A DNA stretch of 64,000 nt from Acidobacteriota bacterium (GTDB lineage: Bacteria > Acidobacteriota > Thermoanaerobaculia > Multivoradales > JAGPDF01), in contig JACTMI010000020.1 in assembly GCA_014584695.1 (NCBI GenBank), positions 62,001-126,000 on the forward strand, given 5' to 3'. Made by a program: the position numbers and the translations under genes. This document shows positions 4,739 through 22,456 of this stretch, one piece after another (position 1 is the stretch's first letter; each line of letters begins with the position of its first letter). The notes beneath the pieces are model-generated. The model was not told the DNA's origin. It did not search any database and saw nothing but the letters and a program-made list of their open reading frames with translations.

Positions 4739-5260
4739 ATGAAGCTCCGATCCGTCGTCGCCGCCACGCTGCTCGTCGCCGCTGTCGCCACGGCCCAGGG
4801 GAGCCACGAGCACCATCCTCCGGCGCCGCAGGAGCCGATGGGCTCGGCGCCGGTCGGAGCCCTGGCCGCGCTGCCGCCGGAGCTGCGGGAGCTCTTCCGG
4901 CTCGAGATGGCAGCTCTCCAAGGGGCGATGCTGGAGCTGCTCCCCGCGGTGATTGCCGGGGATTGGGGGACGATCGGCCGGATCGCGGGCGAGATTCGGA
5001 GCGGCTTCGTGCTCTCCCGCCGGCTGACGGAGGCGCAGCGCGAGGAGCTCCATCGCGTTCTGCCGCCGAGCTTCCTCGAGCGGGATGGCGACTTCCACCG
5101 CCTCGCCGATGGGCTCGAAGCCGCGGCTCGCGGCCGCAGCCCGGAGCTGACGTCCTTCTATGTCTACCGCCTGGTGGAAGGCTGCGTCGGCTGCCACTCC
5201 CGCTTCGCGCAGGAGCGCTTCCCGGCGTTCGCGCCGCCGGCGCCCGCGCACGCGCACTAG
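4739..5260 (+). CDS. Exported mono-haem c-type cytochrome, cytochrome c'-like
   Basis: A 173-residue exported protein. The ATG at 4739 follows GGGAGGT and begins a Sec signal peptide (MKLRSVVAATLLVAAVATAQG). The mature chain starts with a His-rich SHEHHPP patch, is mostly helical, and carries a single haem-attachment motif CVGCH about 20 residues before the C-terminus. A four-helix bundle with a C-terminal CxxCH is the cytochrome c' layout; the match is by architecture only. It should be a periplasmic electron-transfer, gas-binding or metal-related haem protein. It stands alone, with 223 bp of featureless sequence before it. Confidence 0.7.
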   Translation: MKLRSVVAATLLVAAVATAQGSHEHHPPAPQEPMGSAPVGALAALPPELRELFRLEMAALQGAMLELLPAVIAGDWGTIGRIAGEIRSGFVLSRRLTEAQREELHRVLPPSFLERDGDFHRLADGLEAAARGRSPELTSFYVYRLVEGCVGCHSRFAQERFPAFAPPAPAHAH

Positions 5261-5378
5261 CGAGGCCGTTGACGCGGCGGTCTAGGCCGGCCTCTCGCGA
5301 CGAACCCGACCGGGTTTCCGGGGCTCAGTTGGTCCCGGGCTTGCAACGGTTGGTCCCCGCGAAGGAAAGGAGGCTGCG

Positions 5379-6332
5379 ATGACCGACCTTCGAACCCAGA
5401 GAAATCTCGCGCTGGCCGGCGCCGCGGTGGCGGTGGCGGTGCTGCTCGGCTTCGTGCTCGGCAGAGGTAGCCAGTCGTCCGCGCCGCAGCTCGAAGCGTC
5501 GCGCGCCGTGGCGGCCGAGTCCGCGGCCGCGGCAGGCGAGAGCGCGACCCCCGCGCCGGCGGAGCAGAGCGCGCCACCGGCCGCGGGCGCGAGCGTGCCG
5601 GCGGCTTCGACTCCGCCCGCGGCGTCGCCCTCGGCGCGTCGCGCCGAGGCGCCGTCGCGGCCCGCGAGCACGGGCGCGGCGGACGCGCCGGCGTCCACCG
5701 ACCGGCCGGCCGGCGAGCGGTGGACCCAGGAGCCCGGCGCGGCGCTGGAGGCGGCCGAGCAGTCCGCCGCGCCGGCGGAGCCCGAGCCGGCTCCCGCGCG
5801 TCCGGAGCCGGTGCCTCTGACGGTCGCCGAAGGCACCCAGATCACCCTCGAGCTGCTCGATCCGGTCTCGAGCCAGACCGCGCAGGTCGGAGACCGCATC
5901 GACGCGGAGCTCCTGCTGCCGGTCGAAGTCGACGGCCGCGTCGCGCTCCCCGCGGGCTCCCGGGTCATCGGCCGGGTCACCGAGGCGGTGGCGCTCGGAC
6001 GCATCGGCGGCCGCGCGCGCCTCGCGTTCTCGTTCGAGAGCGTGCGCGTGGATGGGCGTGACGTGCCGATCGCCGCGCACTTCGCGCGCGAGGGCAAGAG
6101 CGAGACCGGCAAGGACGCCGCGACCATCGCCGCGGGCGCCGCGATCGGCACGATCCTGGGCAACCAGGCGAAGAAGAACGACCGCGGCAAGGTGATCGGC
6201 GGCGTGGTCGGCGCGGCCGCCGGGACCGCCGCCGCGGCCGCCACGAAGGGAGAGACGATCGACCTCGTGGCGGGCGCCGAGCTGCGCCTGACCTTGCGCC
6301 AGGCGGTCACCGTCACCCGCGCCGCCCATTGA
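5379..6332 (+). CDS. Membrane-anchored protein with glycine-zipper C-terminus
   Basis: 317 residues. An uncleaved N-terminal membrane anchor (about 8-30, LALAGAAVAVAVLLGFVLG) is followed by about 110 residues of Ala/Pro/Ser-rich low-complexity linker. A folded domain begins near VPLTVAEGTQITLELLDPV. That domain resembles the beta-rich segment seen in TrbI/VirB10-related and other envelope proteins, with the recurrent pattern GDRIDAELLLPV...LPAGSRVIGRV. Near the C-terminus is a glycine-zipper stretch (AAGAAIGTILGN and GGVVGAAAGTAAAA). It is probably an envelope-spanning structural protein, and no enzymatic motif is visible. It has a ribosome site (GGAAAGGAGG) and is not obviously part of an operon. 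Confidence 0.6.
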   Translation: MTDLRTQRNLALAGAAVAVAVLLGFVLGRGSQSSAPQLEASRAVAAESAAAAGESATPAPAEQSAPPAAGASVPAASTPPAASPSARRAEAPSRPASTGAADAPASTDRPAGERWTQEPGAALEAAEQSAAPAEPEPAPARPEPVPLTVAEGTQITLELLDPVSSQTAQVGDRIDAELLLPVEVDGRVALPAGSRVIGRVTEAVALGRIGGRARLAFSFESVRVDGRDVPIAAHFAREGKSETGKDAATIAAGAAIGTILGNQAKKNDRGKVIGGVVGAAAGTAAAAATKGETIDLVAGAELRLTLRQAVTVTRAAH

Positions 6333-6510
6333 CGGGCGAGCTCCACGACCTCGGCTGCCGGCGCGAAGTGGGCGAATTGTAGGCGAGCCGCCGGCCGCCG
6401 ACAAACCCCCTCGGGGTTGCGGCCGACGGCCCCCCGGGGTGGCCCCGAACCGGGTCCGCGGGGGGCTCGCGCGCCGCGCCGCCTCCCTACAATCGAAGCG
6501 GGTGCGGAGA

Positions 6511-6552
6511 GCGAGCCCACGGGCTCCGGCCCCGCATCGGGCGAGCCCACGG
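6511..6552 (+). repeat. Two direct repeats GCGAGCCCACGG 30 bp apart in the hoxF leader
   Basis: The 12-bp sequence GCGAGCCCACGG occurs at 6511-6522 and again at 6541-6552, exactly 30 bp (about three helical turns) apart, 23-64 bp before the hoxF start. A TACAAT -10-like box lies at 6488-6493, so the repeats would sit in the transcribed leader. They may be tandem activator or repressor sites, or simply repeated sequence; no regulator is known. Confidence 0.35.
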
Positions 6553-6574
6553 ATTCGATTCCCGAGGTGCGAGC

Positions 6575-8419
6575 ATGGAGAGGTTCAAAGAGGCGGCGGT
6601 CGCGGCGATCTGCGACGGCCTGGGCGGAGACCGCGGGCGGCTGCTCGACGTCCTGCTCGAAGTGCAGCGCCAATTCGGCCAGATCGACGGCGAGTCGATC
6701 GACGCCGTCGCGGCGGCGCTCGGCGTCGCTCGCGTCGACGTCGAAGGGGTCGCGACTTTCTACTCCTTCCTGTCGAGCGAGCCGACCGGCCGGGTCGTGA
6801 TCCGGCTCTGCGACGACGTGCCCGACCAGATGATGGGCGCCGACCAGGTCGCCGAGGCGCTCGAGGAGGAGCTCGGCATCGGCGTCGGCGAGACCACCGC
6901 CGACAGCGAGTTCACGTTGCTGCGGACCTCTTGCATCGGCCTGTCGGACCAGGCTCCGGCGGCGCTGTTCAACGACGTCCCGGTGCCGAACCTCGGCCCT
7001 TCGAGCTCGCGCCGGCTGGTGCGCGAGATTCGCGCTCACCCGCGCGAGGTCGACCTCGGCAAACTGCTGGTGCGCGAGTACGGCGATGGCGCCAACTCGC
7101 ACGACCTCGTCCGTTCGGCGGTCAAGAACAACCTGCGTCGCCCCGGCGAGGTGATCTTCGCGCCGATGGCGCCGGGCGCCGCGCTCACCAAGGCGCTCGC
7201 GATGAGCCCGGCGGAGGTGATCCGCGAGGTCAAGACGGCGCGCCTGCGCGGCCGCGGCGGCGCCGGTTTCCCGACCGGCATGAAGTGGGAGTTCACCCGC
7301 GCCGCTGAAGGGGCCGAGCGCTATCTCGTCTGCAACGCCGACGAGGGCGAGCCCGGCACCTTCAAGGACCGCGTGATCCTCACCGAGCGCCCCGACCTGC
7401 TGTTCGAGGGGATGACGGTCGGCGGCTACGCCATCGGCGCCCGCCAGGGCATCCTCTACCTGCGCGCCGAGTACGCCTATCTGCGCCGCTACCTGGAGCA
7501 CGTGCTCGCCCGCCGGCGCGAGCAGGGCCTGCTCGGCCAGAGCCTGTGCGGCCGGGCGGGAATCGACTTCGACATCCGGATCCAGATGGGCGCCGGCGCC
7601 TACGTCTGCGGCGAGGAGACGGCGCTGCTCTCCTCGTGCGAGGGGCTGCGCGGCGATCCGAAGAACCGGCCGCCGTTCCCCGCTCAGCGCGGCTACCTCG
7701 GGCGGCCGACCTCGGTCAACAACGTCGAGACGCTCTGCTGTGCGGCGCGCATCCTCGAGCTGGGCCCGGGTTGGTTCGCCTCGCTCGGTTCGCGCCAGAG
7801 CACCGGTACCAAGCTGCTCAGCATCTCGGGCGACTGCACGCGCCGCGGCGTCTACGAAGTCCACTTCGGCACGCCGCTCGCCGAAATCTTCGCCCTGTGC
7901 GGAGCCGACGAGCCGCTGGCGGTGCAGGTCGGCGGCCCGAGCGGGCAGCTCATCGGCGCGGCGGATTTCGGCCGCAGCGTCTGCTTCGACGACCTCGCAA
8001 CCGGCGGCGCGCTGGTCTTGTTCGCGGCCTGGCGCGATCCGCTCGAGATCGCCTCGCGCTACATGAGCTTCTTCGTCCACGAGAGCTGCGGCTTCTGCAC
8101 GCCCTGCCGGGTCGGCAACGTGCTGCTCAAGGAGCGGCTGGACCGGATCCGCGCCGGCCTGGGCGAGCCGGCCGACCTCGATTACCTGCGCGAGCTGGGC
8201 GAGAGCGTCAAGACGGCGAGCCGTTGCGGTCTCGGGCAGACCTCGCCCAACCCGGTGCTGTCGACGCTGGCGAACTTCCGCCCGGCCTACGAGCGGCTGC
8301 TGCGCCAGCCGTCCGGCGACGGCGCTCAACCGGGCTTCGATCTGGCGGCGAAGCTCGCGACCGCGAGCGCGCTGGCGGGGCGACGGTCGGTCCACGTCGG
8401 GCCCCAGGGGGAGAGCTGA
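6575..8419 (+). CDS. hoxF: NAD-reducing hydrogenase diaphorase subunit HoxF
   Basis: The flavin- and NAD-binding subunit of a bidirectional group 3d [NiFe] hydrogenase, passing electrons between NAD(H) and the HoxUYH module in the cytoplasm. At 614 aa it matches the Ralstonia-type HoxF. A NuoE-like domain (about 1-150) ends in the family signature CIGLSDQAPA. The NuoF-like part follows with GRGGAGFPTG (FMN, about 226), CNADEGEPGTF, GAGAYVCGEE and the [4Fe-4S] ligands ESCGFCTPC and SRCGLG near the C-terminus. The NuoE-like domain lacks two of the four cysteines of classical NuoE, as in Ralstonia HoxF from memory. The ATG follows GAGGTG. Its stop overlaps the hoxU start (TGATG). A separate hoxE is absent, as expected when the domain is fused. 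Confidence 0.93.
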   Translation: MERFKEAAVAAICDGLGGDRGRLLDVLLEVQRQFGQIDGESIDAVAAALGVARVDVEGVATFYSFLSSEPTGRVVIRLCDDVPDQMMGADQVAEALEEELGIGVGETTADSEFTLLRTSCIGLSDQAPAALFNDVPVPNLGPSSSRRLVREIRAHPREVDLGKLLVREYGDGANSHDLVRSAVKNNLRRPGEVIFAPMAPGAALTKALAMSPAEVIREVKTARLRGRGGAGFPTGMKWEFTRAAEGAERYLVCNADEGEPGTFKDRVILTERPDLLFEGMTVGGYAIGARQGILYLRAEYAYLRRYLEHVLARRREQGLLGQSLCGRAGIDFDIRIQMGAGAYVCGEETALLSSCEGLRGDPKNRPPFPAQRGYLGRPTSVNNVETLCCAARILELGPGWFASLGSRQSTGTKLLSISGDCTRRGVYEVHFGTPLAEIFALCGADEPLAVQVGGPSGQLIGAADFGRSVCFDDLATGGALVLFAAWRDPLEIASRYMSFFVHESCGFCTPCRVGNVLLKERLDRIRAGLGEPADLDYLRELGESVKTASRCGLGQTSPNPVLSTLANFRPAYERLLRQPSGDGAQPGFDLAAKLATASALAGRRSVHVGPQGES

Positions 8420-9135
8420 TGAGCGACGAGACGATCACCCTCACCGTCGACGGCCAGCGGATCCCGGCCCGCCCCGGCCAGACCATCCTCGAGGCGACCG
8501 AGGCGGCCGGCATCTACGTGCCCCGGCTGTGCTGGATGAAGGAGCTGCTGCCGGGCGGCAGCTGCCGGGTCTGCACGGTGCGGGTCAACGGCCGCGCCCA
8601 GGCCGCCTGCACCCAGCCGGTGGCGTCCGGCATGGTGATCGAGAACGACACGCCGGAGCTGCGGCGGCTGCGTCGGGACATCGTCGACATGCTGTTCGTC
8701 GAGGGCAATCACTTCTGCATGTTCTGCGAGAAGAGCGGCAACTGCGAGCTGCAGGCGCTCGCCTACCGCTTCGGCATCACGGCGCCGCGCTTCCCGTACC
8801 TGTTCCCCCAGCGCGAGGTCGACGCCTCTCACCCCGAGATCCTGCTCGACCGCAACCGCTGCATCCTGTGCGCTCGCTGCGTGCGCGCGAGTCGCGAGCT
8901 CGACGGCAAGGCGGTCTTCGGCTTCACCGGCCGCGGCCCCGGCAAGCGGCTGGCGGTCGCTTCGGCGGACGGCCTCGCTGGCACCGACGCCGAGCGCGGC
9001 GACCGCGCGGTCGCCGCCTGCCCGACCGGCACGCTGCTGCCGAAGCGGGTCGGCTACGCCGTGCCGGTCGGCCGCCGGCGCTTCGACCACGAACCGATCG
9101 GCGCGGAGATCGAGCCGGCGACGGCGAGCGAGTGA
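8419..9135 (+). CDS. hoxU: NAD-reducing hydrogenase diaphorase subunit HoxU
   Basis: The iron-sulfur wire between HoxF and HoxY, 238 aa, close to the usual length. A plant-ferredoxin-type [2Fe-2S] domain comes first, with cysteines 38, 49, 52 and 64 (CWMKELLPGGSCRVC...AAC). It is followed by a NuoG-type His-Cys3 cluster site HFCMFCEKSGNC, then a ferredoxin-like CILCARC and ACPTGTL. It lacks the molybdopterin-like domain of full NuoG, as expected for HoxU. The start codon shares a nucleotide with the hoxF stop, so translation is coupled. The next gene begins 10 nt downstream. Confidence 0.93.
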   Translation: MSDETITLTVDGQRIPARPGQTILEATEAAGIYVPRLCWMKELLPGGSCRVCTVRVNGRAQAACTQPVASGMVIENDTPELRRLRRDIVDMLFVEGNHFCMFCEKSGNCELQALAYRFGITAPRFPYLFPQREVDASHPEILLDRNRCILCARCVRASRELDGKAVFGFTGRGPGKRLAVASADGLAGTDAERGDRAVAACPTGTLLPKRVGYAVPVGRRRFDHEPIGAEIEPATASE

Positions 9136-9145
9136 GAGGACTCCG

Positions 9146-9691
9146 ATGGCGAAACCGAGAATCGCGACCACTTCGCTCTGCGGCTGCTTCGGCTGCCACA
9201 TGTCGCTGCTCGACATCGACGAGCGGATCCTGCAGCTGGTCGAGCTGGTCGAGTTCGACCGCTCGCCGATCAACGACTGGAAGGAGATCCAGGCCGACGT
9301 CGACGTCGGACTGATCGAAGGCGGCTGCTGCAACGAGGAGAACGTCGAGGTGCTGCGCAGATTCCGCGCCCGCTGCAAGGTGCTGGTCTCGGTCGGAGAC
9401 TGCGCGATCAACGGCGGCATTCCGGCGCTGCGCAACCTGGTGCCGCTCTCGGAGTGTCTCGAGGAGGCCTACCTGAACGGCCCGACGGTGGTCAATCCGG
9501 GCGGCCGCATCCCGGACGATCCGGAGATCCCGCTGCTGCTCGACCGGGTCTATCCCTGCCACGAGGTGGTGCGGATCGACCATTACCTGCCGGGCTGTCC
9601 GCCCTCGGCCGACGCCCTGTGGGCGGCGCTCACGGCGCTGCTCGGAGGCCGGGCGCCCGAGCTGCCCTACGAGCTGGTCAAGTACGACTGA
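9146..9691 (+). CDS. hoxY: [NiFe] hydrogenase small subunit HoxY
   Basis: The small subunit, carrying the single [4Fe-4S] cluster next to the Ni-Fe site. 181 aa, short as in cytoplasmic group 3d enzymes, with no Tat signal. The N-terminal LCGCFGCHMSLLDID supplies the proximal-cluster cysteines (the last Cys of the motif is C17). Further ligands are in EGGCCNEENV, SVGDCAINGG and LPGCPPSA. It starts 10 nt after hoxU with a GAGAGGA ribosome site and is followed within 20 nt by hoxH. The absence of a signal peptide and of extra C-terminal clusters supports a cytoplasmic, NAD-coupled enzyme. Confidence 0.93.
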   Translation: MAKPRIATTSLCGCFGCHMSLLDIDERILQLVELVEFDRSPINDWKEIQADVDVGLIEGGCCNEENVEVLRRFRARCKVLVSVGDCAINGGIPALRNLVPLSECLEEAYLNGPTVVNPGGRIPDDPEIPLLLDRVYPCHEVVRIDHYLPGCPPSADALWAALTALLGGRAPELPYELVKYD

Positions 9692-9710
9692 GGGGAGAGG
9701 AGAGAGGCAG

Positions 9711-11159
9711 ATGGAGAGCACCGGCAACCGGCGGATCGTGATCGAGCCGGTCACCCGCGTCGAGGGCCACGGCAAGGTCACCATCCTCCTCGATGAGGAG
9801 CGGCGGGTCCAGGAGGCGCGGCTCCACATCGTCGAGTTCCGCGGCTTCGAGCGCTTCATCCAGGGGCGTCCGTTCTGGGAGGTGCCGGTCCTGGTGCAGC
9901 GGCTGTGCGGCATCTGCCCGGTCAGCCACCACCTCTGCGCGGCCAAGGCGGTCGACGGCATCGTCGGCGTCGATAGGTTGACGCCGACCGGCGAGAAGAT
10001 GCGCCGGCTGATGCACTACGGCCAGATGTTCCAGTCCCACGCGCTGCACTTCTTCCACCTCGCCGCGCCCGATCTGCTGTTCGGCTTCGACGCCCCGGTC
10101 GCGACGCGCAACGTCCTGGGCGTGATTGCCGCCCATCCGGATCTCGCGGTCCAGGGCGTCACGATGCGCAAGTTCGGCCAGGAGATCATCCGGCTGACCG
10201 CCGGCAAGAAGATCCACGGCACCGGCGCCATCCCCGGCGGCATCAACAAGAACCTGTCGCTTTCGGAACGGGACTTCCTGCTCGCGGAGCTGCCCCGCAT
10301 GCTCGAGTGGAGCCGGCAGTCGGTCGCCCTCGCCAAGGACTACACGCTCGCCCATCTCGAGCAGCTCGCCGGGTTCGGCTCCTTCCCGTCGAACCATCTG
10401 TCGATCGTCCGCGCGGACGGCGCGATGGACCTCTACGACGGCGGCCTGCGGGCGATCGACGAGACCGGCGGCACGATCCTCGACCACGTCGACCCGCGCG
10501 ACTACCTCGACGAGATCGGGGAGGAAGTGCGGCCGTGGTCGTACATGAAGTTCCCCTTCCTCAAGCGGCTGGGTCCCGAGCGGGGCTGGTACCGGGTCGG
10601 CCCGCTGGCGCGGGTCAACGCCTGCGACTCGATCGACACGCCCGGCGCGGAGGCCGCGCGGCGCGATTTCCTCGCCCACTTCGGCGGCGGCCCCTGCCAC
10701 GTCACCATGGGCTACCACTGGGCGCGGATGATCGAGCTGCTGCACGCCGGCGAGGTGATCGAGCGGCTGCTCCACGATCCCGACCTCCAGGGCGACGACC
10801 TGGTGGCGCCGGCGGGCGAGCGGCGCGGCGAGTTCGTGGCGATGATCGAGGCGCCGCGCGGCACGCTGACCCACCACTACCGCGTCGACGCCCAGGACCG
10901 GGTGACGATGGCCAACCTGATCGTCTCGACCACCTGCAACAACGAGGCGATGAACCGGGCGGTGCGCAAGATCGCCGACGACCACTTGACCGGCGTCGAC
11001 GAGATCACGGAGGGGCTGCTCAACCGGATCGAGGTCGGGATCCGCGCCTACGACCCCTGTCTCTCCTGCGCCACCCACGCGCTCGGACAGATGCCGCTCG
11101 AGGTGACGGTGGTCGGCCCGGACGGCGCCGAGCTCGCCCGTCGCGCGAGGCCGGAATGA
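9711..11159 (+). CDS. hoxH: [NiFe] hydrogenase large subunit HoxH (precursor)
   Basis: The catalytic subunit that binds the Ni-Fe(CN)2CO centre. 482 aa. The L1 motif RLCGICPVSHH gives Cys66 and Cys69, and the L2 motif DPCLSCATH gives Cys450 and Cys453. The 26 residues after His456 form the C-terminal extension that a dedicated protease removes after nickel insertion. All four nickel-ligand cysteines are present, so the enzyme should be active. A GGGGAGAGGAGAGA ribosome site precedes the ATG. The stop overlaps the start of the protease gene (ATGA). Genes for the hyp maturation machinery are not in the window and must be elsewhere. Confidence 0.95.
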   Translation: MESTGNRRIVIEPVTRVEGHGKVTILLDEERRVQEARLHIVEFRGFERFIQGRPFWEVPVLVQRLCGICPVSHHLCAAKAVDGIVGVDRLTPTGEKMRRLMHYGQMFQSHALHFFHLAAPDLLFGFDAPVATRNVLGVIAAHPDLAVQGVTMRKFGQEIIRLTAGKKIHGTGAIPGGINKNLSLSERDFLLAELPRMLEWSRQSVALAKDYTLAHLEQLAGFGSFPSNHLSIVRADGAMDLYDGGLRAIDETGGTILDHVDPRDYLDEIGEEVRPWSYMKFPFLKRLGPERGWYRVGPLARVNACDSIDTPGAEAARRDFLAHFGGGPCHVTMGYHWARMIELLHAGEVIERLLHDPDLQGDDLVAPAGERRGEFVAMIEAPRGTLTHHYRVDAQDRVTMANLIVSTTCNNEAMNRAVRKIADDHLTGVDEITEGLLNRIEVGIRAYDPCLSCATHALGQMPLEVTVVGPDGAELARRARPE

Positions 11160-11683
11160 CGGCGGGCGCGACGCTGGTACTCGCCTGGGGCAATCCCGGA
11201 CGGCGCGACGACGGGCTGGGACCGGCGCTCGCGGCGGCGCTGGTGGCCGCCGAGCTGCCGAACGTCCGCGTCGAGGCGGGTTACCAGCTCGAGGTCGAGG
11301 ACGCCGCCGAGCTGGCCGGGCCCGCGCGGGTCGTCTTCGTCGACGCCGATCGGACCGGCCCGGAGCCCTTCTCGCTGCGGCGGCTCGAGCCGGACGGCGG
11401 CGGCTTCGGCTTCACCAGTCACAGCGTGCCCCCCGCCCGGCTGCTCGCGCTCGGACGGGACCTGTTCGGCGGCCGGCCGGAGGCCTGGCTGCTGGGCATC
11501 CGGGGCTACGAGTTCGACGAGTTCGACGAGGGGCTGTCGCCGGGAGCGACGGCCAACCTCGCCGCGGCGACCAGCCACCTGCGGGCGGCGCTCGCCGCGG
11601 GCGAGCTGCGCGAGACGCCACCTACTGCTCCCGCCGGGCGCCGGCGCGTCCTGGAGCGGGCCCGCGAGGTCGACCATGGCTGA
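11156..11683 (+). CDS. hoxW: Hydrogenase maturation endopeptidase HoxW
   Basis: 175 aa member of the HybD/HycI/HoxW peptidase family. It probes nickel in the HoxH precursor and cleaves after the histidine of DPCLSCATH. Visible family features are GNPGRRDDGLG near the N-terminus (metal-sensing acidic residue in DDG), FVDAD in the middle, and the histidine of FTSHSVPP. The ATG overlaps the hoxH stop by 3 nt. The last codons overlap the next gene by 8 nt, so HoxW is coupled both ways. The Arg-rich tail after about residue 150 is longer than the core needs. Confidence 0.88.
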   Translation: MTAGATLVLAWGNPGRRDDGLGPALAAALVAAELPNVRVEAGYQLEVEDAAELAGPARVVFVDADRTGPEPFSLRRLEPDGGGFGFTSHSVPPARLLALGRDLFGGRPEAWLLGIRGYEFDEFDEGLSPGATANLAAATSHLRAALAAGELRETPPTAPAGRRRVLERAREVDHG

Positions 11684-12065
11684 ACAGAGAGCGATGATCC
11701 TCTGCATCGACGACGATCCGGACGTGCTGTCGTTCCTCGAGATCGTGCTCGGGAGCGCGGGCTACGGCTTCGCTGGCGCCGCCAGCGCCGAAGCGGGCTT
11801 GCGGATCTACAAGGAGGCCCACCCCGACCTGGTCATCGTCGACCTGATGATGGAGGAGGTCGATTCGGGGGCCGTGTTCGCCAAGGAGCTCAAGGCGCTC
11901 GGCAACCGGGCGCCGGTCTTCATGCTGAGCTCGGTGGGCGACGACCTCAACCTCTCGACCGACGCGACCGCGCTCGGCCTCGCGGGGGTCTTCCAGAAGC
12001 CGCTCGCCAGCGCGCACCTGCTGCCCGTGCTCGAGGCGGCGCTCGCCGAGCGGCGCCCGGCCTGA
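11676..12065 (+). CDS. Single-domain response regulator coupled to the hox operon
   Basis: 129 aa, a CheY-like receiver with no output domain. It has the acidic pair IDDDPD near residue 11, the phosphoacceptor Asp56 in VIVDLMM, and the conserved lysine in FQKPL. It starts inside the last codons of hoxW (8-nt overlap), so it is made with the hydrogenase. The C-terminus faces a membrane histidine kinase gene convergently, only 23 bp away. It may relay the kinase signal to a protein partner rather than to DNA. Its link to hydrogenase control is inferred from position alone. Confidence 0.88.
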   Translation: MAEQRAMILCIDDDPDVLSFLEIVLGSAGYGFAGAASAEAGLRIYKEAHPDLVIVDLMMEEVDSGAVFAKELKALGNRAPVFMLSSVGDDLNLSTDATALGLAGVFQKPLASAHLLPVLEAALAERRPA

Positions 12066-12071
12066 GGCTTC

Positions 12072-12084
12072 CGGGCTGAGCCCG
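12072..12084. terminator. Short hairpin between convergent genes
   Basis: CGGGC-TGA-GCCCG, a perfect 5-bp stem with a 3-nt loop, sits in the 23-bp gap between the stop codons of the response regulator and the histidine kinase. It could end both transcripts, but no T-run follows, so the call is weak. Confidence 0.3.
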
Positions 12085-12088
12085 CAGC

Positions 12089-14062
12089 TCACGCCAGCGG
12101 GTCGGGGGGCGGCTCGAGGACGGGCTGGCTGACGCGCCGGACCGGGATCTCGACTACCACCGTCGTCCCTTCGCCTTCGGTGCTCGCAACCTCCACGCGG
12201 CCGTGGTGCCGCTCGACGGTCTGCTTGACCAGCGCCAGGCCGAGTCCGGTGCCCGCCGGGGAGTGCCTCTTGGCGTTCGAGGCGCGGAAGAACTCCTGGA
12301 AGAGCTTGCCCTGCTCGGCGGCCGGAATGCCGATACCGGTGTCGCGGACGACGAAACGGACCTCGCCCGGCGCCCCGGCCTCGAAGCGGACGGTGACCTC
12401 TCCCCCTTCGGGCGTGTAGCGCAGCGCGTTCGAGACCAGGTTCTCCATCAGCTCCTTGAGCAGGTCGACGCCGCTCTCGACCGCCGGCAGTCCGGGCGCC
12501 ACGGTGACCCCGAAGCGGAGCCCCCGGGCCGTCGCCTGGGCGCGGAACGTCTGCTCGGTCTGACGCGCCAGCTCCTCGAGGTCGACCACCACGTCCGGGA
12601 TCTCGCGGCTGATGTCGCGGGCTCGCGCGATGGTCAGCAGCTGGCCGATGGCGCGGTCGAGCGCGCGCAGCCGCTCCTCGAGGCGGCCGAGCAGCTCGGC
12701 CTGCCGGTCGTTGACCGGGCCGACGTGCCCGGCCGCGACCAGCTCGAGCATGCCCAGGCCGGCCGACAGCGGGGCGCGCAGGTTGTGCGCGACCTTGAGC
12801 ATGAACAGCGTGCGGTCGCGCATCAGATCTTCGATCGCCTCGTTGGCGCGCGCGTTCTCGATCGCCAGCGCCACCAGCTCGGCGGCGAGGCGGAGCAGCT
12901 CGGAGTCGCGCCGGTCGAAGCGGTCCGCGGTGTGGGCGTAGATGCCCAGGGTGCCGATCACGCGTTGCTCCACCTTGAGCGGCGCCAGGATGGCGGAACG
13001 GATGCCGAGCGCGCCGAGCTCCTGCTGGAGCTGCAAGGCGATGTTGCCCTCCAGGCCCCCTTCGACCAGGGTCTCGCCGCCCTCGATGATGCGGCGGTTG
13101 AGCGGGCTCTGGTCGAGACGGATCACGGTCTCGCGCATCAGCGACTCGGGCAGGCCGTGCGCGGCGACGTAGCGCAGCGTCTCGCCATCGTCGGACAGCA
13201 GCTTGATGGCGACGGCGGGAACCTCGGTGACCTGCGCCACCTCGCGCACCACCGTCTCGAGGATCGGCGCCAGGTGGCGCTCGGTGCCGATGGCGCAGAC
13301 CATCGCGTAGAGACTGTGCAGGTGCCGGTTGAGCTCGGCGATCTCGGCGCTGACGCGGGCGAGCTCGTCGACGCCGCGGCGCAGCTGGCCCATGATCCGC
13401 GTCACCAGCGTCGCGGTCAGGAAGAGCGCCGCGGTCAGGCCGAGCAGCAGGACGGTGGCGTGCACCGGCTGGTCGATCAGGTGGAGCGGCTCGCCGCGGA
13501 AGGCGAGGCCGTGGCTGGGCAGCAAGCCGGAGACGTCGCCCAGCAGCAACCCCCACAGGCCGGCGGCCGCGAGCCCGGCGAACAGATACGCGGTCGCGGC
13601 CGGGAACTGGACGGCCGCGATCACGACGTGGAAGAGCAGGAAGAAGGCGAGCGGGCTCGAGGCGCCGCCGGTGAAGTGCAGCAGCGCCAGCATCGCCGCG
13701 TAGTCGAGGATCACCTCGACCACCACCAGCAGCCGGTCGAGCGCGGGATCGGCCGCCAGGCGCTCCTCCCAGCGGCTGAAGGCCCAGGCGAAGAGCGCGT
13801 TGTAGAGCGGGCTCGCGACGGCGATGAGGAGGATCGGCAGCGCGCGCAGCTCGAAGCCCAGCGCCTGCGCGATCAGGACGCCGGCGATCATCACCGGGGC
13901 GACGGCCCAGCGGAGCCGGATCTGCCAGAAACCGCTGCGGCCCCAGAGCTGGGGCAGCCGCTGCTGTTCAGCGAGCCGCTCGCGCTCCGGGGGGCCGGCG
14001 GGCGGCTCGGATCTGGGCTCTGCTCTCGCTCCCGCGGCGGACTCCGTCCCCGAGCTCGGCAT
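12089..14062 (-). CDS. Membrane sensor histidine kinase with GAF domain
   Basis: 657 aa. The start at 14062 follows GGAGGAGG; the frame is open far upstream, but that part overlaps other sequence. After a charged tail come about six membrane segments (residues about 45-215), a short coiled linker, a GAF domain (about 245-400), and a HisKA region with the phosphoacceptor His near residue 426 ([10 protein letters not shown]). The HATPase domain has the N box [10 protein letters not shown], the G1 box DTGIGIP and the G2 box GTGLGLALV. All kinase motifs are intact. It is convergent with the orphan receiver downstream of hoxW, which makes the two natural candidates for a pair. The input signal cannot be read from the sequence. 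Confidence 0.88.
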
Positions 14063-14318
14063 CGGCCCCTCCTCCGAAAGCACCGGCGACGGCGCCCCGC
14101 CGCCGGCCGCGACGCCCCCAAGAGAGCAGGCGGAGCGCCGCCTGTCGACATCCCCTGGGGTGGGGTCAGCCCGGAAACCCCAGTTGGCTTCTGCTGCGAG
14201 GCCAGAACTGCCGCCGACGCGGGCCTCCAGGTGGTGGACCCGCCCGGTGGAGCCGTGCGGCGGCGACCCCTTCGCCATCCCGTCGGGGTCGAGGAACGCC
14301 TCGTAGACGCGCGCCGCG

Positions 14319-16686
<2,368 letters not shown>

Positions 16687-16992
16687 CTACCGAGTTTCCA
16701 GGAGACGGCGCAGGGCGCGGAGGCCCAGGAAGCAGAGCACCACGGGCACCGAGTAGATCAACCCGGCCGCGAGGATCCCCGCGAGCGGCGGCGGCGCGCT
16801 GCCACCGCCCATCAGCGCGGCGGGCAGCTCGCCGTAGCTCACCGCCGCTCGGAGGAGCGAACGACCGAATCTCTCTGCACCGAGCCCGAGACCGATCCGG
16901 CCGACGGCGCCGACCAGGAACGGCAAGCCCACCAGAACCACGGGGATCAGCCACAGGGGCGAGATTCTCCGGCGCAGGAGCTGGCGCATCAT
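16687..16992 (-). CDS. Small two-helix membrane protein, unknown
   Basis: About 101 aa. The ATG at 16992 is preferred over GTG at 16998 because AGCGGAG lies 5 nt upstream. Two hydrophobic segments are visible (LWLIPVVLVGLPFLVGAVG near the N-terminus and LAGILAAGLIYSVPVVLCFL near the C-terminus), with basic ends (MMRQLLRRR and LRALRRLLETR). I do not recognise a family. It lies between katG and a DUF4256 gene on the same strand without close coupling to either. Confidence 0.5.
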   Translation of the reverse strand: MMRQLLRRRISPLWLIPVVLVGLPFLVGAVGRIGLGLGAERFGRSLLRAAVSYGELPAALMGGGSAPPPLAGILAAGLIYSVPVVLCFLGLRALRRLLETR

Positions 16993-17111
16993 GGGCACTC
17001 CGCTGCCGATCCTACGCCCAGGCTGCCATCGGCAGCGTGCCGGTCGCGGCGAGCAGCGAGGTCCAGCCGCCGGCCCTGAGGACCGGGCTCATCGCGGACG
17101 CTCGCGCGCCG

Positions 17112-17657
17112 TCAGACGACGAGTGTGCCTCGGAAGCCTCTCGCCGCGTAGTACGACTCGGCGCCGTTGTGGTAGACGAAGACCGTGCCATAGCGACGGT
17201 CGCAGAAGAGAGCCCCGCCCAGCGAGCGAACTTCGGCCGGGGTCGCGACCCAGCTGGAGGTCTTGGTGTCGAATTCGCCCAGCCGCTGGAGATCCCGATA
17301 TTCCCCTTCCGTCAGAAACGCGACGCCGATCTCGGCGGCCAACTCGAGCGCGCTGCTCCGCGGCTTGTGCTCCTTGCGCGAGTCGAGCGCCGCGCGGTCG
17401 TAGCAGAGGCTCCTGCGGCCGCTCGGACTCTGCGCGGAGCAGTCGCAGAAAGTCAGGCGCCCGGTCGCCTCGTCGCGGCCGATGACGTCGGGCTCGCCGC
17501 CGGTCGCCTCCATCGCGCGCAGGCTCTTCAGGGCCTCGGGACGACTCTCGAGCCGCGCCTCGACCGCGGTCCAGGCGACGCCCGGGTGGCGATGCGGATG
17601 CGCCTCGAAGCGGGCCTTCAACGTGCGGAGCAGCTGGTCGCGTTCTCGGGCGGTCAT
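17112..17657 (-). CDS. DUF4256 family protein
   Basis: 181 aa, full length for the family. Conserved blocks are easily seen: GGEPDVIGRD, FCDCSAQSPSGRRSLCYDR, FDTKTSSW and the C-terminal GTVFVYHNGAESYYAARGFR. The family is widespread in bacteria and has no established biochemical function. There is no signal peptide or membrane segment, so it is probably cytoplasmic. The ATG start agrees with the family's N-terminus. It is a single gene, with 144 bp of unremarkable sequence before the RES toxin gene. Confidence 0.9.
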   Translation of the reverse strand: MTARERDQLLRTLKARFEAHPHRHPGVAWTAVEARLESRPEALKSLRAMEATGGEPDVIGRDEATGRLTFCDCSAQSPSGRRSLCYDRAALDSRKEHKPRSSALELAAEIGVAFLTEGEYRDLQRLGEFDTKTSSWVATPAEVRSLGGALFCDRRYGTVFVYHNGAESYYAARGFRGTLVV

Positions 17658-17801
17658 GGCTCTGGGCGTCCTCTGGAGGTCGGGTGGCGGTCGGTGTCGC
17701 GCGCGGCGCGCGCAGCTCGAGTCGGGCCAGGGGAAGACCGATCGTAGCAGGACGACGCAGCCGGGCCGGGGCGCGGGGCGCGGCGGGTGGCGAGCGGTCC
17801 G

Positions 17802-18269
17802 CTACGGCCGCGGGACCAGCCGCTGGTCGAGCTCGAAAGCGATCGCGGGGCCGGTCGAAAGCGAAGCGAAGTCGGGGTGGGTGGGGTCGAGGAGGAGATT
17901 CCACTGCTGCTCGATCACCGCGCTGGGCACCCGCAGGGCCAGCGAGCTCTTGGCTCGGATCCAGGAGTCGCCGAGCCGCGCCAGGCGAGGGGGCGCGGGA
18001 TAGGCCCGCCAGTCCGTGGGCAGCAGCGAGCGATCGAGGTCGGCGACCGACGCGTCGGGCACTTCGATGCCGCGCAGCACGAATCTCGAAAGGAAGGAGG
18101 CATCGTTGAGGCCGACCAGGAGCTCGAGCGCGGCCAGCGAGGGCGAGTCCGAGGTGTAGACCATCGCGATGCCGGGCGAGTTCCAGCGCCCACCGTGGAG
18201 CCGCGCCCCCTCGCCGTCGAAGGCCGTGGCGGCGTACTTTTCGGCGACGATCCTCCAGGCCGTCGGCAC
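17802..18269 (-). CDS. RES-domain toxin
   Basis: 155 aa. RES toxins act on NAD+ (degradation or ADP-ribosylation chemistry) and stop growth until neutralised. The family core is visible: an early arginine in TAWRI, then GARLHGGRWNSPG, a serine/leucine-rich helix SPSLAALELLVGL, and the C-terminal NLLLDPTHPDF. The GTG start overlaps the stop of the antitoxin gene (TAGTG), which fixes the start and couples translation. It is in the usual antitoxin-first order. The conserved Arg/Gly/Trp block is intact, so the toxin appears functional. Confidence 0.9.
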   Translation of the reverse strand: MPTAWRIVAEKYAATAFDGEGARLHGGRWNSPGIAMVYTSDSPSLAALELLVGLNDASFLSRFVLRGIEVPDASVADLDRSLLPTDWRAYPAPPRLARLGDSWIRAKSSLALRVPSAVIEQQWNLLLDPTHPDFASLSTGPAIAFELDQRLVPRP

Positions 18270-18778
18270 TACGAGTAGACGCCGTGCTCGATTCGTCCGA
18301 TGACCGCTTCGACCTCTCGCGCGCCGACTTCCGTCCTGGCGAGCTCCCAGGGCGCGGCGCCCCCCAGCACGGCTTGCGGGGTGGCGAGCCACCTGCGCGC
18401 GGCGGCCGGCTCGCCGCCGAACAGCTCGATGGCGCGGCCGAACAGACGGCCGGCTCGCAGCAGGCGGTCGGTCTCGTCGGGCTTCAAGCGGCCCTCTCGC
18501 TTCCGCCGCGTCAGCGTCCGCTGCGGGATCTGCACGACGTCGAGCAGATCGATCTGCGACAGCTCCAGGTTCCGCTGCAGCCGCGCCAGCGCCTCGAAGG
18601 GAACGCCGCGCTCGACGGTCCGCAGCAGCTCGGCCGGGTCGAGCTGCTCCAGGCCCAGGAGCAGGACATAGGAGTGGGCACCGGGCCCGCCCTCGTGAAC
18701 GAGCTCGACGAAGCGGGAGACGTCGGCCGGTTCGCGGGCGCTGTCGGAGAGAACCGTCGCCAGCGCAGGAGTAGCCAT
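18269..18778 (-). CDS. Xre/MbcA/ParS-type antitoxin
   Basis: 169 aa. The middle holds a helix-turn-helix segment (LSQIDLLDVVQIPQRTLTRR), and the C-terminus has the DUF2384 toxin-binding part, GRAIELFGGEPAAARRWLATP, ending in IGRIEHGVYS. It pairs with the RES toxin directly downstream and shares a TAGTG overlap with it. The ATG at 18778 lacks a Shine-Dalgarno and lies only 7 nt from a -10 box, so it is probably a leaderless message. It should bind both the toxin and the palindrome in its own promoter. Confidence 0.9.
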   Translation of the reverse strand: MATPALATVLSDSAREPADVSRFVELVHEGGPGAHSYVLLLGLEQLDPAELLRTVERGVPFEALARLQRNLELSQIDLLDVVQIPQRTLTRRKREGRLKPDETDRLLRAGRLFGRAIELFGGEPAAARRWLATPQAVLGGAAPWELARTEVGAREVEAVIGRIEHGVYS

Positions 18779-18785
18779 GTGGCCA

Positions 18786-18814
18786 AGGATAGAGGCCAAT
18801 TGGCGCACTGTCAA
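18786..18814 (-). promoter_or_regulatory. Xre-RES promoter with palindromic operator
   Basis: On the minus strand a perfect -35 TTGACA (18814-18809), a 17-bp spacer and -10 TATCCT (18791-18786) lie 7 nt before the antitoxin ATG. The spacer contains the perfect 10-bp palindrome GCCAATTGGC (18795-18804). TTGGCC half-sites recur on both sides of the -10 box. This is a textbook layout for autorepression by the antitoxin. The -35 also contains the stop codon of the gene upstream. Confidence 0.75.
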
Positions 18815-19458
18815 GCGAAGGAGGCCCGCGCCGCGCCTCTCGCCGGCGGGGTCGAATCCGCGGGGGTCCTCTCGGGCGAGGCTCCGTTGATTGGCGCCGG
18901 CGCGAGTTTGGTGGCCGGTTCGGCGATTGGGTCGCGTTGCAGGGGCGTGCCCGCGAGGTACTCCGCCTCCGAGATCGACCCGCCGCGCGCCGTGTCCTGA
19001 TCGACCAGGATCCGCCACCGCCCATCCTCCAGGCGCAGGATCATCTCGAAGGCTGTGTACCGGACTCGGGTTTCCCCTCCCGCCAGCACCACCTCGGAGC
19101 GAAACACCCCGGTATCCCGGGCCAGCCCGCCGGAATGGGTCCGGGTGAGGAAGCGCACTTCGCTGTGGCGCCGGATGCCCCGCTCGCGCGCCCGGGCGAA
19201 GCCTTCGACCAGCTCGCGCCGATAGCGGTCCAGTCCGTAGATTTCGCTGGTGTCGACCGACACGCGCACCAGGTCCGCCGACTGCACGGCCAGGAAGCCC
19301 TCGGCGTCGAATTGGTTGGAGGCCGCGAGCAGCGGAATCCAGACCTGCCGATCGATCTCGCGCGGTACGTCGCTCGCGCCGACCGGCGCCGCGCCGCCGG
19401 CGGCCAGCGTCACGAACAGTGCCGAAACCGTCACGGTCGCTCGGAGCCAGATCGTCAT
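18811..19458 (-). CDS. Exported NTF2-like (SnoaL/DUF4440-type) protein
   Basis: 215 aa. The start at 19458 has GGGAG upstream and opens with a Sec signal peptide (RATVTVSALFVTLAAGGAAPVGA). The mature core (about 35-160) looks like the cone-shaped NTF2 fold, a helix LLAASNQFDAEGFLAVQ followed by strands ending in FEMILRLEDGRWRILVDQD. That is the typical pattern of DUF4440/SnoaL-like exported proteins. The C-terminal 50 residues are disordered and Pro/Ala-rich. No catalytic residues can be assigned. Its stop codon lies within the -35 box of the Xre-RES promoter, so the two units abut. Confidence 0.65.
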   Translation of the reverse strand: MTIWLRATVTVSALFVTLAAGGAAPVGASDVPREIDRQVWIPLLAASNQFDAEGFLAVQSADLVRVSVDTSEIYGLDRYRRELVEGFARARERGIRRHSEVRFLTRTHSGGLARDTGVFRSEVVLAGGETRVRYTAFEMILRLEDGRWRILVDQDTARGGSISEAEYLAGTPLQRDPIAEPATKLAPAPINGASPERTPADSTPPARGAARASFA

Positions 19459-19702
19459 GGTCGTCTCCCGTCGAGTCCCCGGAGGGACGCTGGTCGGTGA
19501 GGAGCAGTGCTTATCACGGCGCGCCCGAAGCGGACCACGGCGTACCCCACGGGGAGGCCACCCAGAAGAGCCGGGTTGACCTCGATCCACCGGGGGAGCG
19601 TGCGGGTGATGATCTGGCCCCAGGGAGGTTACGCTCCCGGCGCGTCGATGACCCGGCCTCGGCAGCAACGATTGTCTCGAGCAAGGCGCGGAGCGGCTCG
19701 GG

Positions 19703-19990
19703 TCAGGGACCCGTGGACTGCTCGCGGATGGCGTTCTCGATGACGTCGAGAACGGTGGGCCAACTGTAGATCAGCAGCCCATGATCGAGCATCCAGGGCA
19801 ACCGCGGCGCGAGCTCGAGCAGCGCCGGATGTTCGACGACGAGCGCCCGCAGACGCGAGGTGCCGCGCTCCCGGAGCCGTGCAGCCTCCGCGGTCGAACC
19901 ATGGTCGAAGGCATCGTTCGCGACGCCAAAGAGAGTCAGGAGCCGGCCGACCTCCGTCAGTACTTCAAGCGGGATGCGCGAGGAGTTCAC
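19703..19990 (-). CDS. Small hypothetical protein
   Basis: 95 aa from a GTG start with no clear ribosome site. The sequence is helical and soluble (VLTEVGRLLTLFGVANDAFD, then LRALVVEHPALLELAPRLPW). No family is recognised. It follows another small gene by 74 nt on the same strand within a stretch of lower GC than the rest of the window. The 244 bp beyond it toward 19459 contain no gene I can support. Confidence 0.4.
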   Translation of the reverse strand: MNSSRIPLEVLTEVGRLLTLFGVANDAFDHGSTAEAARLRERGTSRLRALVVEHPALLELAPRLPWMLDHGLLIYSWPTVLDVIENAIREQSTGP

Positions 19991-20064
19991 GGGCAGTCTC
20001 CAGCACCGGCGAGAGCGCGTCGAGAGGAGGAATCGAAGCCGCCAGAGCTGACCCTGATCCTGCT

Positions 20065-20268
20065 CTACGGCAGTTCAACGCGCCAGACCTTCTTGCTCGG
20101 GTCGACAGGCGAGTTCACGTCAAGAACCACCAAGCGTTCATCGGCAGTTCTGGCAACGATGTCTCCCTCGGGGAGGGCCGAACCGCGATCTGCCAGATAG
20201 GCCAGGAGATCGGAGAAGGTCTCCAGGCCATCGCTAGTGGACGAGTGCGGTGCCAGCTCTTCACGCAT
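20065..20268 (-). CDS. Small hypothetical protein overlapping the CPBP gene end
   Basis: 67 aa from ATG 20268; a GTG at 20277 is an alternative. It overlaps the last codons of the CPBP protease gene by 8 nt, which suggests coupling. The product is acidic, with a helical first half (DGLETFSDLLAYLADRG) and a beta-rich second half (DIVARTADERLVVLDVNS). This is compatible with a small regulatory or antitoxin-like protein, but no family is recognised. Confidence 0.4.
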   Translation of the reverse strand: MREELAPHSSTSDGLETFSDLLAYLADRGSALPEGDIVARTADERLVVLDVNSPVDPSKKVWRVELP

Positions 20269-21151
20269 CCAGCGCACGCTGCCGGGGCTGTCGCGGCGCA
20301 GGGTCGAGCAGTGCGCCGATCTCGGCCCGACGCATCCTCAGCAGGAGCAGCACCGCGACCCCCCAGGACACGCCGACGGTCGACCAGGCCACCAGTGAAC
20401 CGTGGAACGACATGGGGTTCACCGCATCGGGCACCGCCGCGGGAACGATGCCCGTCGTGTTGTTGACGGAAGCATGCATCAGCATCACCAGCAGCAGACT
20501 GCCCTCGGTCTTCCAGTAGAGCCAGGACATCGCCACCGACAACGCGGTCACGTGCAGCAGGTAGATCGGAAACGACTGCCCGTCACTCCCGCTGCCGGGC
20601 AGGAAGAACAGCGGCAGGTGCCAGAGCGCCCAGACGACGCCGAGAAGCACGCTCGCGCCGCCGAGGCCTAGGTGCACCGCCAGGCGAGGGAGCGCGTATC
20701 CCCGCCATCCGACCTCCTCGCCAGCTTGCGCCCAGGTCGAAATGAGAATCGCGCCCAGCATCAGGGGGACCGAAGTGTCGCCGAAGGTCGGCCACGCGCC
20801 CAGGACCAGGCGATGGGTCAGGGCGGCGACGACTTTGGTGGCCGCCATGTAGCCGATGGCGAACAGATACCAGCGTGCGCCGAGCCGCCACTTGCCGATG
20901 CGCCTCAGCAGTCGCGCGACTCCAGCGCTCCCTTCACTGTGGGCAGTGAGCGCGAGCGCCACGAACGCCGGCGCGAAGACACCGAGAAGGAAGACCGGGC
21001 CGCCGAGGCCGAACAACCAGGAGTTGCCTGGCGTCACGAACGCCGCCGATGCCAGCCAGGCGATCCAGGTCAACGCAAAGGTCAGGACGAAGAAGCTCGA
21101 CCAAGCGGTGGGCGCCTCGCTCCGAGCATCGGTGTCATCGCTGTCGCCCAT
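20261..21151 (-). CDS. CPBP-family intramembrane metalloprotease (CAAX-protease-like)
   Basis: About 296 aa, with seven or eight membrane segments. The family motif 1, AGEEVGWRGYALPRL, supplies the paired glutamates and arginine. Motif 2 is WALWHLPLFF and the third is MLMHASVNN, so the active site is complete. Bacterial CPBP proteases include abortive-infection, bacteriocin self-immunity and housekeeping members; which applies here is not clear. The ATG at 21151 is preferred; the frame extends to 21208. It begins just 3' of a CGTTAGCC sequence on the minus strand, near the attC element, and may be a gene cassette. Confidence 0.85.
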   Translation of the reverse strand: MGDSDDTDARSEAPTAWSSFFVLTFALTWIAWLASAAFVTPGNSWLFGLGGPVFLLGVFAPAFVALALTAHSEGSAGVARLLRRIGKWRLGARWYLFAIGYMAATKVVAALTHRLVLGAWPTFGDTSVPLMLGAILISTWAQAGEEVGWRGYALPRLAVHLGLGGASVLLGVVWALWHLPLFFLPGSGSDGQSFPIYLLHVTALSVAMSWLYWKTEGSLLLVMLMHASVNNTTGIVPAAVPDAVNPMSFHGSLVAWSTVGVSWGVAVLLLLRMRRAEIGALLDPAPRQPRQRALDA

Positions 21152-21379
21152 GACCGGGATCCGTCTGGTCGGGCTAACGAGCCGTGACGTGAGCGGCGTG
21201 CCATCCACGGCGAGCCGCGAATCGGGCCACGACCGCGGAACGTCTCCGCTCGCAGGACCTGTCGGGCGACAGGCTCCGACCGTTCCGGATCACAGGAACC
21301 GCCGCTTTAGCCAGGTCGCCGGGCTCAGCTGCTGGCGACGCCAGGAACCAGAGGGGGCGTTCATGGAATCTGCTCCGCA

Positions 21380-21453
21380 GACCAACGGCCGAGCTCACCG
21401 GCGACACCGGGAGCGCAGCGACCGGTGGCGCCCGGTGCAGCGTGTAGTTCGGC
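21380..21453 (-). other. Integron attC recombination site (no integrase in window)
   Basis: A 74-bp imperfect palindrome with the full attC layout. Outer boxes GACCAAC (21380-21386) and GTTCGGC (21447-21453) pair at the AAC/GTT cores. Unpaired central spacers of 6 and 5 nt follow, then a stem GCT/AGC. There is one extrahelical base (21438), then two runs of CACCGG/CCGGTG around a short internal region and an 11-nt variable loop. One bulged base on one arm and unpaired spacers are diagnostic of attC. Read on the minus strand the site follows hicBA, the orientation expected for a hicBA cassette. The region 21152-21540 holds no other gene. Confidence 0.75.
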
Positions 21454-21540
21454 CGCGCCTCGGTACCTTCGCGTAGAGAACATGGAAGGTGCCACTGCAG
21501 GCAGGCGACCCGCAGCACATTGCAGCCGGCGCGACCGACG

Positions 21541-21736
21541 CTAGGCTTGCTCTGGTGCGGGTACTTCGAGGTCGCGGCAGATCTTGGCCGCGAGGTACGA
21601 GTTGATCTCGCGATGGCGGGGCACCGTGCTCGTGCGGCCAGCGGCAGCGTTGACCCAGACGGTGTGGCTGCCGCCCTCCCGCAGCAACTGGCAACCATGC
21701 CGCTCGAGGTGCCGGGAAAAGGTCCCTCCGTTTCAA
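21541..21736 (-). pseudogene. hicA: hicA toxin gene with a +1 frameshift
   Basis: HicA is a small dsRBD-like mRNA interferase. The first codons, TTG AAA CGG AGG GAC CTT, encode the family start MKRRDL and overlap the hicB stop (TTGA). After CTTTTC one extra C in a run of three shifts the frame. The continuation RHLERHGCQLLREGGSHTVW runs in the other frame to the TAG at 21541, with the catalytic His in GGSHTVW intact. Dropping one base restores a 64-residue HicA, the normal size. No alternative start lies between the shift and the dsRBD core. It could be a true inactivation, a sequencing error or, less likely, recoding. Confidence 0.8.
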
Positions 21737-21954
21737 CCAGAGACCCTGAGCGGCTCGCGAAGAGCCTCCACGCCCTCGAGCTCCCGTTCCGCCAATTCTC
21801 GATTGGCCTCGAGTACCAACTGGACGGCCTCCCGGAGATTCGAGCGCGCCTCCTCTAGACTCGAACCCTGCGTGTTGGCTCCCGGAAGTTCCTCGACGAA
21901 GGCGATGTAGCCCTCCGGGACCTTGCGATACACCGCTGTGAATTCGGACTCCAT
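21733..21954 (-). CDS. hicB: HicB-family antitoxin
   Basis: 73 aa from the ATG at 21954, chosen because GAGGTGG lies just upstream; another ATG at 21969 has no site. The partial RNase H-like HicB fold is clear: YRKVPEGYIAFVEELPGANT, then GSSLEEARSNLREAVQLVLEAN. A TATCCT box at 21977-21972 gives a short leader. The stop overlaps the toxin start (TTGA). This HicB is short and lacks a C-terminal helix-turn-helix, as many do. With hicA broken, it may persist as an orphan antitoxin. Confidence 0.85.
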   Translation of the reverse strand: MESEFTAVYRKVPEGYIAFVEELPGANTQGSSLEEARSNLREAVQLVLEANRELAERELEGVEALREPLRVSG

Positions 21955-22158
21955 ACCGCCACCTCGCATTTAGGATACCAGCTCGCCCGGGCCCGACTCG
22001 CGCTGCTTCCTTCACGCCCGCCTGCGCTCTTCGCCACTGGCGAAGTGCGGCCGGACAGATCCTGAGTTCACCGCGGCGCCCCTCGAACGTCACCGAGCGA
22101 AGCGAGCCGCTGCGCAACGGGCGCGTCCGGTGAAATGACTTGCAGCTCATGCAGGCCC

Positions 22159-22213
22159 CCTCTGGAGCTACCCACGCGGTAGCTTTCGAGGTGGCAATCA
22201 ACCCACCCAGAGG
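22159..22213 (+). ncRNA. Compact multi-stem element upstream of an IS110 remnant
   Basis: Outer stem CCTCTGG (22159-22165) with CCAGAGG (22207-22213) encloses two hairpins. One is AGCTACC-CACGC-GGTAGCT (22166-22184) and the other GGTGG-N8-CCACC (22190-22207). All three stems are perfect, although the last shares one base with the outer stem. It lies directly before the IS110 transposase remnant, where IS110-family elements encode their structured guide (bridge) RNA. That identity is an inference from position and fold; it could also be a terminal structure of the element. Confidence 0.4.
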
Positions 22214-22223
22214 AAGCGCTGCA

Positions 22224-22315
22224 TGCGAGTCTGTCCGCCGTCGCCACGACTTCAGCTGCGGCATCGACCTGCACGCCCGGACGCTGTACCTCTGCGTCCT
22301 CGGCCGTGAGGGCCG
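22224..22315 (+). mobile_element. IS110-family transposase N-terminal remnant
   Basis: The translated segment HDFSCGIDLHARTLYLCVLG is the unmistakable start of the DEDD domain of an IS110-family transposase (usually YYCGIDLHARTMYVCVLD). The ATG at 22224 is in another frame than this peptide, and similarity ends after about 27 residues, so only a degraded 5' end survives. The rest of 21955-22456 holds no gene. Position next to an attC site recalls IS110/IS1111 elements that target attC, but no element ends could be defined. Confidence 0.7.
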
Positions 22316-22456
22316 AACGGGGCGGGGGCGGGTGGTCATTGCGCGCGGTGTGGTGGGGTCTCCTGGCCCGGGTTGGACGGGCGTTTCCGGCGGTCGACGT
22401 GGGGGGTGGAAACGGGGGATGATCGCGGGCCCGCGGGGATGGAAGGAGGAGCTTCG

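Follow-up and report, generated by a model that had tools for sequence, protein, structure and literature searches.

The integron integrase IntI acts on attC sites in the form of single-stranded hairpins (the folded bottom strand); by cutting and rejoining them it excises or inserts the gene cassette that lies between two sites. CALINs, the IntegronFinder class of loci with at least two attC sites, a spacing of at most 4 kb and no integron integrase nearby, occur about as often as complete integrons do (2961 versus 2760; PMC9024848). Three origins have been proposed for them: off-target insertion, loss of intI and rearrangement (PMC8618304). Insertion sequences of the IS1111 type whose target is one end of attC have been described as well (ISKpn4, ISPst6; PMC11187229). 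The locus described here lies on contig C9 of a draft genome, in the stretch of 64,000 nucleotides that was analysed as a whole (the window). It very probably represents a decayed piece of an integron array with two attC sites (a CALIN), in which a truncated IS1111-like element, an IS-broken attC, a hicBA cassette and a well-preserved attC follow one another. Its features are the following.

20261-21208, minus strand: gene of a CPBP (Rce1-like) protease, accessory (PF02517, 57.1 bits)
21172-21267, minus strand: candidate third attC, strongly decayed, including a GTTAGCC box (15.3 bits)
21380-21453, minus strand: attC of the hicBA cassette, R'' GCCGAAC and R' GTTGGTC (covariance model and 93%-identical twin)
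21380-22056, minus strand: entire hicBA cassette (about 677 bp), extending from the upstream site's R' through its own attC
21541-21732, minus strand: remnant of a hicA toxin gene (PF07927 HicA_toxin, 40.9 bits, profile positions 8-57 only)
21733-21969, minus strand: hicB-like antitoxin gene (PF21748 UPF0150, 27.3 bits, at the cut-off)
22050-22146, minus strand: sequence read as a second, decayed attC, its R''/spacer side replaced by an IS end (21.4 bits)
22140-22312, plus strand: truncated 5' end of an IS110/IS1111-like element, transposase start HDFSCGIDLHARTLYLCVL, inserted in the second attC

The 74 nt of 21380-21453 had been proposed to be an attC in the initial annotation of the window. 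On the minus strand they read GCCGAAC (R'')-TACAC-GCT(G)CACCGG...CCGGTGAGC-TCGGCC-GTTGGTC (R'), with outer boxes of 7 nt each, a variable loop and L arms that are paired at 9 of 9 positions around a single extrahelical base. The two spacers are indeed unpaired and of the lengths given earlier, although by our own parse their order is 5 then 6 nt and not 6 and 5. The folding energy (z -1.8) is by itself weak evidence, and a crude box-and-stem score does not discriminate alone, as values of 9 or more occurred twice in random sequence (30 x 64 kb). Because neither measure was decisive, a covariance model was built, as the initial annotation had also suggested. It was trained on 14 attC sites from the C2 array of the same genome and from relatives at the family, order and class level, a set in which stem covariation was present; the site itself and its closest twin were left out. 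Applied to 46 named integron loci of many groups, this model found 98 sites at E <= 0.001, with scores of 26-61 bits, which indicates that it recognises attC in general. The left-out site at 21380-21453 received 39.8 bits (E 2e-8 in 119 kb), a mid-range value for the attC sites of the 46 named loci, and topped the 64-kb window by 18 bits. Its twin, C2:31606-31679, is 93% identical to it over 70 nt, is intergenic and is the second of five attC sites in the genome's own integron array, with a different gene in front. As R''/R' boxes, L''/L' arms, extrahelical base, spacers and recognition by the model are all found together, 21380-21453 is a genuine attC site. An Rfam search of the 19-23 kb region returned a single match below the gathering score and no attC family, and a degenerate pattern of this attC had no match when searched genome-wide. 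The fast first pass of the genome-wide model search missed the 21380 site, which is found by direct search, so the genome-wide list of attC sites is a lower bound. A look-alike at 17337-17458 had a good score in the crude scan but only 10.9 bits by the covariance model, and was rejected.

The statement in the initial annotation that an integrase is lacking holds locally, since neither a match to the IntI family nor an intI fragment was found on C9. It does not hold for the genome. The genome-wide search for intI that had been proposed with it (profile search; 4.35 Mb, 48 contigs) revealed a full-length IntI on contig C2 (TIGR02249, 451.7 bits, cut-off 265), which is followed by five attC sites toward the contig end. 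An intI adjoining an attC array, as in a complete integron, is thus present on C2 and not at the window locus, and a genome need not be free of integrase when a 64-kb window of it shows an attC and no integrase. In the C2 integron (G000:C2:29357-33976; L015 12357-16976) intI and cassettes are on the same strand with the array 3' of intI, opposite to the classical layout; this arrangement is also apparent in the relatives G004, G005, G019 and G076. More attC sites occur at or near the ends of C2, C11, C47 and C1, which suggests that the array was probably split by the assembly across these contigs, and the IS110/IS1111-like repeat is probably what splits it. The site at 21380-21453 sits 83 kb inside a 259-kb contig, away from the contig ends.

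Upstream of hicBA, 0.6 kb from the preserved site and hence well within 4 kb, the model found a second site at 22050-22146 with 21.4 bits. The E-value was 0.0039 in 119 kb, 0.00029 in 9 kb unfiltered and 0.139 genome-wide, so that the score alone is not significant at genome scale, and the R' box is GTCCGGC where GTTNNNN is expected. The case for this site is made by its position and the IS junction and not by the score alone. The IS remnant at this junction matches contigs C11 and C47 at their ends, with 79-80% identity, as well as copies in relatives. The first 32 residues of the C47 copy match annotated IS110 family transposases with E down to 2e-6 (N-terminus only). The copy that lies at an attC in G004 reached 21.2 bits with PF02371 (cut-off 21.3) and stayed below the cut-off with PF01548. 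No match to the Pfam IS110 model was obtained in the own genome, because the IS copies found there are cut at contig ends or truncated. The IS end occurs at nine other places. At seven of them, which are spread over five genomes including the own one, it directly adjoins an attC recognised by the model, always at the same position; the window junction aligns with these seven junctions, which defines a fixed insertion point at one attC end. The remaining two places are L192, where the IS end is followed by a hairpin that ends in GTTAGGC and was rejected by the model, and L189, the most diverged copy, which is without attC. Because the junctions align and attC-targeting IS1111 elements such as ISKpn4 and ISPst6 are known, 22050-22146 is read as an attC broken by an IS1111-like element that would target attC. 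A 10-bp inverted repeat (CAGGAAAGCT/AGCTTTCCTG) is present at the C47 and C2 contig ends; at the right end of C2, sequence containing the complementary 10-bp repeat comes after GCCTAAC, an R'' box like that of an attC, and resembles the opposite end of the IS. Two further observations concern this element. C2 and C11 (right end) and C47 (left end) all appear to break off within one and the same IS110/IS1111-like element, inserted in attC sites. In L192 (36-99) the short hairpin after the IS end (GCCGATGAG...CTCATCGGC; 4.4 bits) resembles an attC of another type.

Between the two sites lie hicB and hicA, and the preserved attC follows them on the same strand and ends the cassette, as had been noted from the sequence. 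The first codons of hicA (KRRDL) are in a different frame from the rest of the gene, a frame break for which an assembly error is possible in a draft genome. Among consecutive pairs in true arrays, R' and the following R'' agree at 6-7 of 7 positions in 32 of 37 cases, with non-consecutive pairs often reaching 6; on C2 the outer boxes agree at 7 of 7 in all consecutive pairs of sites. The corresponding boxes of the window locus, R' GTCCGGC of 22050-22146 and R'' GCCGAAC of 21380-21453, match at six of seven positions, which is compatible with one hicBA cassette, though not specific for it. The hicBA unit hence has what characterizes a gene cassette, i.e. open reading frames followed by an attC on the same strand and an R'/R'' match, and the boundaries 21380-22056 are supported. 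On C47 (L077, 1-780) a second toxin-antitoxin cassette, by eye hicAB, comes directly after the same IS-attC junction; its gene order is opposite to that of hicBA.

The GC content of 20.1-22.3 kb, reported before to be low, was 66.9% against a window mean of 72.4%, the second lowest value of 309 sliding windows. On the other side of the cassette a degenerate second site, CGTTAGCC, had been suspected just ahead of the CPBP gene. This box exists, at 21172-21178 rather than at 21167-21174. The surrounding 21172-21267 scored weakly (15.3 bits; E 0.21 in 119 kb and 0.016 in 9 kb; box rule 5/7); it may be a third, decayed attC, as an unproven candidate, and 22050-22146 is the better partner of the preserved site. 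The CPBP gene itself was not accepted as a cassette, since the covariance model recognised no attC downstream of it, and this part of the initial annotation is unsupported; no close relative of the gene was found in three genomes of the same genus. To the right, about 150 bp separate the IS remnant from the start of a conserved DUF4287 gene at 22.46 kb. In the same-genus genome G003 this gene directly adjoins the ortholog of the gene at 4.8-5.2 kb of the window. As the flanking genes are adjacent there, about 17 kb (window 5220-22390) is extra compared with G003, and the IS/attC remnant forms the right edge of this block. NuoEF-like, hydrogenase-like and peroxidase genes are carried by it as well, so that the cassette fragment is only part of the block. 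At 17802-19018 (minus strand) an Xre/MbcA/ParS-type antitoxin lies beside a protein that resembles, by eye, a RES-domain toxin, with no attC nearby. PADLOC reported no defence family.

With a second attC 0.6 kb away and no intI nearby, the cassette relic proposed in the initial annotation is borne out as CALIN-type. The preserved site keeps the boxes, stem and extra base typical of recombination sites, while in its upstream partner the IS has replaced the R'' side and the GTT core is changed. Owing to these two defects the hicBA cassette is probably locked in place. The disruption of hicA points to a toxin-antitoxin pair in decay, with a toxin function that may be lost. The most likely way of arrival is a rearrangement that removed a piece from the array, and not a capture at the locus: the fragment has two attC sites, an IS borders it on the outside, and a twin of its attC exists in the array of the host.

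Capture would mean that the host IntI inserted the hicBA cassette, alone or as one of a few consecutive cassettes, at a secondary site of the chromosome. IntI is present in the genome, its off-target activity is documented (PMC10127599) and such insertion is among the proposed CALIN origins (PMC8618304). Moreover, R' GTTGGTC after the good attC mismatches the cassette's own box, as is expected where it meets other DNA. A single cassette, however, brings one attC, yet a second attC and an IS end are found upstream and the block resembles a stretch of array. We therefore give capture a small, though real, chance. It is unlikely that the locus is what remains of a separate, older resident integron that has lost intI and most of its cassettes. 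The decay of one attC and of hicA and the weak third candidate at 21172-21267 would fit such a history, and loss of intI is a proposed route to CALINs (PMC8618304); on the other hand, the 93% identity with an attC of the existing array suggests a common and fairly recent origin, no intI fragment was detected on C9, and G003 is without the block. A chance hairpin, a terminator or a coding-sequence coincidence at 21380-21453, to which the fold z-score of only -1.8 and the crude box scores sometimes attained by random sequence might point, has a negligible probability in view of the E-value of the held-out model and of the nearly identical intergenic twin found in a genuine array.

The locus is a case in which one can tell where a CALIN probably came from, owing to a twin attC in the host integron, an attC-targeting IS at the edge and a decaying toxin-antitoxin cassette inside. 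That the attC-targeting IS1111-like element is a general means of breaking up and scattering integron arrays in this lineage, so that IS-bounded pieces become detached CALINs, here with a toxin-antitoxin cassette, is a speculative extension that we consider quite doubtful.

Compared with described systems, the locus is a clear example of a known phenomenon, no element of it being new in kind. The IS1111 elements that insert in attC (ISKpn4, ISPst6) are marked by a DEDD transposase of the IS110 type, a fixed insertion point at one attC end, subterminal inverted repeats and a guide RNA encoded downstream of the transposase. The IS of the window locus shares with them the insertion at one attC end and would also resemble them in an IS110-like transposase start and an inverted repeat near both ends (at the C47 and C2 contig ends), whereas the window holds a 5' remnant only and the likeness is read from partial copies. 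Like the toxin-antitoxin cassettes of chromosomal integrons, hicBA combines two small toxin-antitoxin genes in one cassette with an attC behind them; unlike those, its hicA is frame-disrupted and it lies outside an array. The chromosomal integron on C2 has a near-identical attC, and the same IS end occurs in attC sites of that array type, but it possesses intI and a longer array, whereas the window locus is without intI. As in other CALINs, two attC sites lie within 4 kb with cassette genes between them and no intI nearby; the locus is set apart by having two sites only, one of them IS-broken, and by a host that carries a complete integron elsewhere.
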